From Aliarcobacter trophiarum LMG 25534 (lineage in GTDB: Bacteria; Campylobacterota; Campylobacteria; Campylobacterales; Arcobacteraceae), in NCBI RefSeq assembly GCF_003355515.1, contig NZ_CP031367.1, positions 1 to 64,000 on the forward strand: 64,000 nucleotides of DNA, written 5' to 3'. A program made the translations under genes and the position numbers. A model generated the notes under the pieces. The model was not told the DNA's origin. It saw nothing but the letters and a program-made list of their open reading frames with translations, and searched no databases. Below, in pieces: positions 1 to 50,446 of this stretch (its first letter is position 1; each line of letters opens with the position of its first letter).

Positions 1-1314
1 ATGACAAATAAAGAGTTTTTATCACTTATTCAAAAAGAGACAAACAAAAATGACTTCGAAAGATATTTAAAACAACTTGTTTTAAAAAAATTATCTATTG
101 AAGAAAATATTGCAATATTTGAAGTAGCAAATAAATATATAGCCTCTTGGATAAAAAGCAAATATACAAATCTTATACAAAACTGTTTTGAAAAAAGTAT
201 AAACATAAAACCAGATATTGAGATTAGACTATTTGGTGAAAAAAAGACAAAAAAAGAGATACAAAATAGTCTAATTCAAAATCAAAGTCCAGAAAGCACA
301 ATATTAAACCCATCTTATACATTTGATTCATTTGTAGTTGGTCCTTCAAATCAAATGGCATATAATGCAGCTTTAGCAGTTGCTTCAAAACCAGGTATTC
401 AATACAATCCACTTTTTATTTATGGTGGAACAGGTTTAGGAAAAACTCATATTTTACAAGCTATTGGAAATCATGCTTTAGAAAATGATAAAACTGTAAT
501 TTATGTAACAATAGAACAATTTATGAATGATTTCATATTTTCAATAAATAAAAAAAATATGGAACATTTTAGAGAAAAATATAGAAATTGTGATTTACTT
601 TTAATAGATGATGTACAATTTTTAAGTGGAAAAGAGAGTACTCAAGAGGAGTTTTTCCATACTTTTAATGAGTTACACAATGCAAAAAAACAAATTGTAA
701 TGACTTCAGATAGGCTTCCATCTCAAATAGCTGGACTTGTTGATAGGTTAAAATCAAGATTTGAATGGGGTTTAACAACAGATATTCAAATTCCAAAACT
801 AGAGACAAAAATTGCAATTATTGAAAAAAAATCTGAATTGAATGGTATTAATCTAAGTCGTGATATTGTCTCATTTATTGCAACAACACTTGATAGTTCA
901 ATTAGAGAAATAGAAGGTGTTTTAATAAGAATAAATGCAAGTGCCTCTTTACTTAATCTTGAAATAAACCTTCAAATGGTTCAAAATCTTTTAAAAGACC
1001 AAATAAAAGAGAATAAAGAGAATATAAAACTTCCAGATATTATAAGTTTAGTTGCAAGTGAATTAAATATAAAACCAAGTGATATAAAATCTAAAAAAAG
1101 AACTTCAAGTGTAGCAAATGCTAGAAGAATTGTAATTTATCTTGCACGTGAATTAACTCATAACTCAATGCCAGATATTGCAAAATTTTTAGAGATGAAA
1201 GATCATAGTTCAATATCTCATAATATGAAAAAAACAACTGAGCTAATTGAAAAAGATGAAAATTTTAAATTGATAATTCAAAATTTAAAAAATAAATTAA
1301 TAAATAAGGAGTAA
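1..1314 (+). CDS. dnaA: chromosomal replication initiator DnaA
   Basis: Initiator ATPase that binds DnaA boxes and opens the chromosomal origin. The 437-residue length is typical. An AAA+ Walker A motif (GGTGLGKT) lies at residues 142-149, a Walker B (LLLIDDVQF) near 199-207, and the domain IV DNA-binding signature DHSSISHN starts at residue 401. The N-terminal ~80 residues form the helicase/partner-binding domain, followed by a short low-complexity linker. It is followed by dnaN and gyrB, the classical origin order. The window starts at its ATG, so its promoter and any upstream origin half are not visible. Confidence 0.99.
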   Translation: MTNKEFLSLIQKETNKNDFERYLKQLVLKKLSIEENIAIFEVANKYIASWIKSKYTNLIQNCFEKSINIKPDIEIRLFGEKKTKKEIQNSLIQNQSPESTILNPSYTFDSFVVGPSNQMAYNAALAVASKPGIQYNPLFIYGGTGLGKTHILQAIGNHALENDKTVIYVTIEQFMNDFIFSINKKNMEHFREKYRNCDLLLIDDVQFLSGKESTQEEFFHTFNELHNAKKQIVMTSDRLPSQIAGLVDRLKSRFEWGLTTDIQIPKLETKIAIIEKKSELNGINLSRDIVSFIATTLDSSIREIEGVLIRINASASLLNLEINLQMVQNLLKDQIKENKENIKLPDIISLVASELNIKPSDIKSKKRTSSVANARRIVIYLARELTHNSMPDIAKFLEMKDHSSISHNMKKTTELIEKDENFKLIIQNLKNKLINKE

Positions 1315-37193: not shown

Positions 37194-38156
37194 ATGAACT
37201 ATAAAGAGATAGTAAAAGAGGTTTTACTGATTGAAGCAAAAGAGCTTGAAATTGCTTCAAGCTCTATCTCTTTTGATATAGAGAGTATTGTAGATTTAAT
37301 TGTAAATTCAAAAGGTAAATTAATTGTTACTGGTGTTGGAAAATCTGGACTTGTAGGTGCAAAAATTGCAGCTACACTTGCAAGTACAGGAACTAGCTCA
37401 TTCTTTCTTCATCCAACAGAGGCTATGCATGGCGATTTAGGAATGATTGGAAAAGATGATATAGTTTTAGGAATATCATATAGTGGAGAGAGTGAAGAGC
37501 TTATCCAAATTCTTCCACATATAAAAAGGTTTAATATCCCACTAATTGCAATGGCAAGAGATGAAAACTCAACGTTGGCTAAATATTCAGACTATTTTAT
37601 AAATATTAGTGTTAAAAAAGAGGCTTGTCCTCTTGATACTGCTCCAACATCTTCTACAACTTTAACAATGGCTATGGGTGATGCTCTTGCAGTTTGTTTG
37701 ATGAAAAAAAGAGATTTTAAGAAAGAGGATTTTGCATCTTTTCATCCAGGTGGTAGTTTAGGTAAAAAGCTCTTTATAAAATTGGATGATCTTTTAAGAA
37801 AAGAGAATCTTCCTGTTGTTTCACGTGAAACAAAATTAAAAGATGCAATTATTGTGATGAGTGAAGGGCGATTAGGAACTGTAATTATTGAAGATGAAGA
37901 AAATAGAGTAATTGGAGTTCTAAGTGATGGAGACTTGAGAAGAGCATTAATGAAAGATGATTTCTCTCTTGATTGTGGTGTTGAAACTATTGCAACTTTA
38001 AATCCAAGAACTTTTGATGATGATAATCTTTTAGCTAGTGATGCTTTACAAATCATTGAGAACTATAAAATTCAACTTCTCATAATTACAAATAAAAACA
38101 GAGAGTTAAAAGGCTTGTTACATATTCATGATCTTATAGAAGCAGGTATAAAATGA
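37194..38156 (+). CDS. kdsD: arabinose-5-phosphate isomerase (KpsF/GutQ type)
   Basis: Interconverts ribulose-5-phosphate and arabinose-5-phosphate, the first step of KDO synthesis for lipopolysaccharide. The 320-residue protein has an SIS domain (about 30-180; VTGVGKSGLVGAKIAATLASTG, HPTEAMHGDLGM, SYSGESEEL) and two CBS domains (about 200-320). It lies between rnj and a pseudouridine synthase gene, overlapping the latter by 4 nt. An exact parS sequence (37817-37832) is embedded in its reading frame as codons for VSRET. Confidence 0.95.
   Translation: MNYKEIVKEVLLIEAKELEIASSSISFDIESIVDLIVNSKGKLIVTGVGKSGLVGAKIAATLASTGTSSFFLHPTEAMHGDLGMIGKDDIVLGISYSGESEELIQILPHIKRFNIPLIAMARDENSTLAKYSDYFINISVKKEACPLDTAPTSSTTLTMAMGDALAVCLMKKRDFKKEDFASFHPGGSLGKKLFIKLDDLLRKENLPVVSRETKLKDAIIVMSEGRLGTVIIEDEENRVIGVLSDGDLRRALMKDDFSLDCGVETIATLNPRTFDDDNLLASDALQIIENYKIQLLIITNKNRELKGLLHIHDLIEAGIK
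37817..37832. other. parS: exact parS centromere-like site inside kdsD
   Basis: TGTTTCACGTGAAACA is identical to the 16-bp palindromic parS consensus bound by chromosomal ParB/Spo0J. It lies about 38 kb from dnaA, in the expected origin-proximal zone. ParB binding itself is inferred. Confidence 0.85.
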
Positions 38157-42193: not shown

Positions 42194-42595
42194 ATGTCTT
42201 TATTACAATACACATCAGATGAGATGTTTTCGGCAACAGATTTGGTAAGAAAAAATAAATCTATTTTTGATAAATTACAAAAAAAAGAGATAGAAAAAGC
42301 GATAATACTCCGAGATGGCAAACCATCTATAATAATGATAGACTTTTCACAGTATGAGAAAATAATGAAAGATTATTTGAATTTAAAAGCTGGAAATAGT
42401 ACAAATATAAACACAAAAACTATAAATGAAACTGTAACAGAAGAACAAACTATAAAAGGTGACTCAAAAATTAGTCAAGAAGATTATGAAGCTGCTATGA
42501 AAGAGATTGAGCAGATAAGTTTTAATTCAGATTTTAGTATTAAAGATGATGAGGAAAAAGCACCACAAGCACTAAAAGAGTTTTGGGAAAAATAG
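42194..42595 (+). CDS. Phd/YefM-like antitoxin-family protein without partner
   Basis: A 133-residue protein whose first ~60 residues have the Phd/YefM N-terminal DNA-binding pattern: SDEMFSATDLVRKNKSIFDKL, KAIILRDGKPSIIMIDFSQYEKIM. The C-terminal half is acidic and low-complexity (many Asn, Thr, Glu), as in antitoxin tails. No toxin gene (Doc, YoeB, RelE type) follows; the next features are a parS-like site and an opposite-strand gene. It could be a solitary regulator, an antitoxin for a distant toxin, or something repurposed near parS. Its promoter overlaps a palindrome. Confidence 0.8.
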   Translation: MSLLQYTSDEMFSATDLVRKNKSIFDKLQKKEIEKAIILRDGKPSIIMIDFSQYEKIMKDYLNLKAGNSTNINTKTINETVTEEQTIKGDSKISQEDYEAAMKEIEQISFNSDFSIKDDEEKAPQALKEFWEK

Positions 42596-42596
42596 T

Positions 42597-42616
42597 AATG
42601 TTTCACGGGAAACATT
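42597..42616. other. parS: parS-like palindrome with one mismatch
   Basis: TGTTTCACGGGAAACA (42599-42614) matches the parS consensus at 15 of 16 positions (T to G at position 10). The 8-nt arms 42597-42604 and 42609-42616 are perfectly complementary around ACGG. It lies between the antitoxin-like gene and the end of the asparagine-synthase-like gene, 4.8 kb from the exact parS. It could double as a hairpin terminator. Confidence 0.65.
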
Positions 42617-49960: not shown

Positions 49961-50446
49961 TTAAACTTTTTCAACTATAAATATTGGCATATCATATTCA
50001 ACTGGTTCACCGTTTTGAACTAAAATATCAATAATTTTACAATCATATTCAGCTTCAACCTCATTCATAATTTTCATAGCCTCTAAAATACATAGAGTTT
50101 GTCCTTTTCTAACAATATCACCAATTCCACAAAAAGATGGAGAATCAGGAGAAGGAGAAGAGTAGTAAGTTCCCACCATAGGTGCATTTATTGTTATTCC
50201 ATTTACTGAATTCTCTTTTGGTGTTTCATTTGAAACAGCAGGAGTAGATAAAACAGATGAAGATGTAGAAGCAGTTTGAGCAACTGGAGCAATAGCTTGA
50301 GCCATTGGAGTTGTAGAAACTGTAGTAACCCCACCTTCAAAACCTCTTTGCATAGAGATTTCAAACTCTCCTTCTTTAACTCTTAGTTTATTAAGTTCAC
50401 TTTTATCGAAAACTCTAATCAACTCTTTTATATCTTTAAAATCCAT
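49961..50446 (-). CDS. accB: acetyl-CoA carboxylase biotin carboxyl carrier protein
   Basis: Carrier subunit of 161 residues. The N-terminal ~50 residues are the helical dimerisation part, then a Pro/Ala/Thr/Ser linker (about 55-85), and the C-terminal biotinyl domain with the biotinylated Lys in EAMKIMNE and flanking APMVGTYYSSPSPDSPSF. It is the first gene of the accB-accC unit; its promoter lies in the 141-bp spacer shared with the divergent dCMP deaminase gene. Confidence 0.97.
   Translation of the reverse strand: MDFKDIKELIRVFDKSELNKLRVKEGEFEISMQRGFEGGVTTVSTTPMAQAIAPVAQTASTSSSVLSTPAVSNETPKENSVNGITINAPMVGTYYSSPSPDSPSFCGIGDIVRKGQTLCILEAMKIMNEVEAEYDCKIIDILVQNGEPVEYDMPIFIVEKV

Follow-up and report, generated by a model that had tools for sequence, protein, structure and literature searches.

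A predicted chromosomal parS site within a kdsD-like gene of Aliarcobacter trophiarum, conserved at the DNA level in Arcobacteraceae

The parS Sequence, Its Host Gene and the Origin Region

The window analyzed here is the first 64,000 nucleotides of contig NZ_CP031367.1 of A. trophiarum LMG 25534, and it begins at dnaA (Table 1). The earlier note had reported an exact parS sequence in it, and we found that the 16-bp palindrome TGTTTCACGTGAAACA (site A) is present as claimed at 37817-37832. It lies in frame in an ORF of 320 aa, running from the third position of codon 208 to that of codon 213, and the peptide V-S-R-E-T assigned to it is correct. The placement "inside kdsD" held in part: the ORF passed the KpsF/GutQ isomerase model, whereas the equivalog cut-offs of kdsD and gutQ were not reached, and the name kdsD is therefore used at the family level only. 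Judged from the protein sequence, site A would fall between the SIS domain and the first CBS repeat. The relatives of the host gene belong to Aliarcobacter and other Arcobacteraceae, the closest among the matches listed being that of Arcobacter cryaerophilus gv. crypticus (93% protein identity).

Table 1. Coordinates of the features discussed (window positions, or contig C1 where indicated).
Feature	Position	Strand	Description
dnaA, origin marker	1..1314	+	TIGR00362, 496 bits (cut-off 344)
KpsF/GutQ-family sugar-phosphate isomerase (kdsD-like)	37194..38156	+	Host of site A; TIGR00393, 360 bits (cut-off 204)
parS site A (predicted)	37817..37832	.	Exact TGTTTCACGTGAAACA, in frame (GT)T-GTT-TCA-CGT-GAA-ACA
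Site A 14-bp core	37818..37831	.	GTTTCACGTGAAAC; longest run of columns at least 90% conserved in the kdsD alignment
ORF, no family assigned	42194..42595	+	133 aa; adjoins site B, conserved beside the site in Aliarcobacter
parS-like site B	42599..42614	.	TGTTTCACGGGAAACA, 1 mismatch; after the stop of ORF 42194-42595 and before convergent asnB; hairpin-capable
ParA-family ATPase	C1:372877-373653		258 aa; directly upstream of parB
ParB	C1:373676-374530		TIGR00180, 181 bits (cut-off 58)

The distance from site A to dnaA is 37.8 kb, or 2.0% of the genome length, which bears out the origin-proximal setting proposed before. In Arcobacter butzleri, oriC has been assigned to ruvC-dnaA-dnaN, with unwinding in the dnaA-dnaN gap (PMC5043019); since the window begins at dnaA, site A lies about 38 kb from the expected origin. 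The GC skew was weak over the first 260 kb from dnaA (C1 1-260000) and uneven near the gene, where a sharp minimum was absent; the broad sampled minimum falls within 0 to 260 kb, which is too imprecise to fix the exact origin. It neither contradicts nor sharpens the origin-proximal placement of site A. An exact search with a few DnaA-box words found none of them beside dnaA.

The earlier note had suggested a genome-wide count of the 16-mer and judged a chance occurrence very unlikely. We scanned the whole single-contig genome (1,915,613 bp) at up to 2 mismatches and found one exact copy, one match with 1 mismatch (site B) and three with 2 mismatches. The reversed-pattern control of the scan gave 1 match, and the 2-mismatch matches thus occur at about the control frequency. 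First- to third-order Markov models built from 464 kb of the A. trophiarum genome predicted 1.3e-6 to 3.4e-6 exact copies per window and 4e-5 to 1e-4 per genome, in agreement with that judgment. The joint probability of the five site A codons, given VSRET, is 0.0016; CGT makes up 3.2% of the Arg codons in the genome vs 86% for AGA. The sequence TGTTTCATTTGAAACA at 50222-50237, in an accB-like ORF, was weighed as a further parS candidate and rejected, as relatives covering that position had no match there at up to 2 mismatches and as such near matches occur at about chance level.

Conservation of Site A in kdsD Relatives

Conservation of the VSRET codons in relatives, a check that had been proposed together with the site, was analyzed in sets of kdsD relatives chosen by protein identity alone; only these serve as a test, because a separate set of 38 sequences was picked for carrying site A. 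At 76% identity or more (n = 30, window included), the 14-bp core was exact in 29 of 30 sequences and had a single change in the other. At 70% identity (n = 44), the core was within one change in 38 sequences and lost or altered in 6. Sites with at most 1 mismatch were found in 72 of 80 relatives. Both outer wobble bases were free to vary: in the 38-sequence set, position 1 of the site, a codon third position, was T, A, C or G in 20, 9, 8 and 1 sequences, and position 16, also a third position, was A, G, T or C in 30, 5, 2 and 1. Among the well-conserved kdsD codons with at least four synonyms, 4 of 119 were fixed, and three of these four are the adjacent GTT, TCA and CGT of site A, for which the pairwise agreement of synonymous codons was 100% vs about 50% elsewhere in kdsD. 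The rare Arg codon CGT was fixed there in close relatives.

Farther kdsD proteins without site A carry other residues at this position (SED, SEN, EPK and others), while in intermediate ones the amino-acid changes stay parS-like, as in VPRET with TGTTCCACGTGAAACA and VSRGT with TGTTTCACGTGGAACA and, more weakly, in the VSHGT and VSCGT variants. The frozen codons, the free wobble ends and the different residues of site-less kdsD together indicate selection on the DNA and not on the protein. The codons are thus conserved far beyond the need of the protein, recent ancestry cannot explain their freezing at these distances, and, as read from these alignments, it is the protein sequence that follows the DNA at site A.

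These data also bear on other readings of the site. That the VSRET codons happen to spell parS could be argued from its position inside a gene and from 2-mismatch sites elsewhere at about the control frequency, but this reading is refuted by the conservation pattern, with at most one change in the core in all 30 close relatives, synonymous agreement of only about half elsewhere and the rare CGT fixed; together with about 2e-6 copies expected per window, this leaves it a negligible probability. Conservation of the protein, with VSRET required where the SIS and CBS parts of the isomerase meet, would agree with the near invariance of the peptide among site-carrying sequences, yet it is extremely improbable given the frozen codon choice with free outer wobble bases, the gap in synonymous-codon identity, the SED, SEN or EPK of farther proteins, and amino-acid changes that track parS-like bases. 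The palindrome also holds two inverted TTCAC cores, and TTCAC is the published DnaA-box core consensus for this class (PMC5043019), so that a DnaA-binding element within 38 kb of dnaA might be proposed. We consider this very unlikely: a DnaA box does not require a fixed 14-bp two-fold palindrome with outer GT/AC and a CG centre, the published oriC for this class lies beside dnaA and not at site A (PMC5043019), and an exact ParB consensus with a cognate ParB is the simpler explanation.

A Second, parS-like Site Downstream

Site B lies 4.8 kb downstream of site A; the earlier note mentions neither this site nor the family-wide conservation of site A. Site B is conserved in the Aliarcobacter genomes near the window, between the gene of unassigned family, for which no NCBIfam or Pfam match was found, and convergent asnB. 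In all 11 genomes examined from this group (window included; relative loci L036, L038, L039, L116-L120, L126 and L127), exactly one half of the site carries an A6-to-C change; the site appears as CACGGG in 7 of 11 and as CCCGTG in 4 of 11, and none of the 11 is symmetric. Comparison of the two forms suggests that they are mutual inversions of a four-base loop, as template switching at a hairpin would give. In a further relative (L133), a parS-like site was seen inside the homologue of ORF 42194-42595.

The flanks of site B add 1 to 12 bp to the inverted repeat, and their sequence changes but often stays complementary, so a hairpin or terminator role is also possible. Site B alone might then be a bidirectional hairpin terminator that merely resembles parS, as its convergent neighbours and an extension of up to 12 bp by changing flanks would suggest. 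However, all genomes of the group have a conserved, parS-like 16-mer between variable flanks, and in some species the flanks extend the repeat by no more than 1 to 2 bp; we place the terminator-only reading on the unlikely side. Functions as parS and terminator may coexist at site B.

parS Placement in Arcobacteraceae and Other Campylobacterales

In a second group of Aliarcobacter, TGTTTCACATGAAACA occurs about 6.8 kb downstream of site A; it is read in frame as VSHET within a gene that by inspection resembles a succinate/fumarate dehydrogenase iron-sulfur subunit. In many other Arcobacteraceae, the site lies about 5 kb upstream of kdsD, between an rlmN-like gene and a phosphorylase-family gene, labelled here mqnB-like. 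Sulfurospirillum and several other Campylobacterales lineages have kdsD without parS; in these lineages, the mqnB-like gene contains an in-frame parS (VSRET, VPRET, VSRGT, VSHET), as does an RluA-type pseudouridine synthase gene (HLFHVKHPI), a family named from its TGRQHQIR...HPI.GD motif. The host gene thus differs between families, and a number of other loci showed no site at up to 2 mismatches within the sequence stretch compared. Many other Campylobacterales have their parS in other genes of this region, and parS, where found, tends to stay in one neighbourhood of about 12 kb.

Additional in-frame parS-like sites (VSHET, VSCET) were observed in other Arcobacteraceae, among others in an apparent dehydrogenase iron-sulfur subunit and an apparent flavoprotein (L041 17408, L048 17369, L063 17377, L131 11742 and 16652, L133 11614; L131 and L133 read with kdsD on the + strand). 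The wider Campylobacterales loci with in-frame parS in RluA-type or mqnB-like genes were L074-L076, L087, L097, L100, L103, L105, L113 and L115.

ParA, ParB and Smc

The reading as parS had been made dependent on ParB/Soj genes in the genome, and an adjacent ParA-ParB pair was found at 373-375 kb; with the DNA-level conservation of the codons, this supports the parS reading of the 16-mer. The best solved relative of the ParB is structure entry 4umk (E 8e-66), the Helicobacter pylori ParB. HpParB has been assayed on TGTTCCACGTGAAACA (PMC11229316), a DNA that differs from site A by one base. R173 and G201 (Caulobacter numbering) mark a parS-binding ParB as opposed to Noc (PMC7383237). In our alignment, the equivalents of Caulobacter R173, T179 and G201 are R, T and G, and the R and G at 173 and 201 were kept in 30 of 30 ParBs examined. 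The CTP motif GERRLRA is present. At DNA-contacting positions, this ParB departs from that of Caulobacter (Q162 to H, G170 to F and R204 to K), which speaks against the parS reading, but these changes are mostly common to Aliarcobacter ParBs, with S at 170 in two genomes. No Noc was called, the single chromosomal ParB reaching 223 bits against a Noc cut-off of 315.

In the complete genome, no Smc was found above cut-off and no ScpA was found, and the SMC_N matches were short or weak; the Smc-ScpAB expected with an SMC-loading parS was thus not detected. The partition complex therefore probably acts through ParA and not through Smc loading, and parS is unlikely to serve in this genome in its usual role of loading Smc.

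Proposed Role of the Sites

The palindrome, the position near the origin, the specificity residues of ParB, the ParA partner and conservation beyond the needs of the host gene were all found here, as for a chromosomal parS. From this combination, site A is very probably a functional chromosomal parS, the predicted ParB loading site of ParABS origin segregation. A ParB dimer would bind the palindrome through its helix-turn-helix, load CTP, close into a clamp and slide into flanking DNA; the clamps would build a partition complex some 38 kb away from dnaA, and ParA would then separate the replicated copies of the origin region. For site A, occupancy by ParB, sliding of the clamp and segregation are what we infer. 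Site B would be a second, probably weaker, ParB loading point.

With one exact and one near site in all, the count of sites by itself is modest, although one parS often suffices (PMC7333895). We found no parS study of Arcobacteraceae in the literature searched. Site A marks the likely partition region of this family and is a clean case in which a centromere limits how a protein-coding gene can be written. One parS can be followed at the same kdsD codons across the family, and in other members of the order the sites are found in genes nearby; the reason for the clustering of parS sites, and for its persistence, is described as an unanswered question in the field (PMC7333895). What these data add is the family-wide conservation through codon freezing in kdsD, the conservation of a partner site, and a genome in which no Smc above cut-off and no ScpA was found. 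A bolder proposal would be that the centromere dictates codons and amino acids of an LPS-pathway gene, and that site B has been selected as asymmetric (a parS half plus an NBS-like half, in either orientation), doubling as a hairpin, to act as a tuned weaker loader or clamp barrier in Smc-less segregation; taken as a whole, we regard this as distinctly unlikely.

Comparison with Known Systems

One half of site B resembles NBS, the Noc binding site, in its A6-to-C change, which is one of the two parS-to-NBS changes. However, site B keeps G1 and its other half is parS. Noc and NBS are marked by Q173/R201 and by A1 and C6, whereas the ParB here has R and G, and both sites have G1.

The chromosomal parS of ParABS systems (H. 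pylori HpSoj/HpSpo0J; Caulobacter, Bacillus) are the closer match, sharing with site A the origin-proximal 16-bp palindrome, the cognate ParA-ParB and the parS-specificity residues in ParB. The present case differs in having one exact and one near site only, parAB about 336 kb from parS on the map and no Smc or ScpA found, and in a site that lies within kdsD, where it has been conserved throughout the family. Compared with these systems, the predicted parS at site A belongs to a known kind of element, of which it is a well-placed example, and is not something new.
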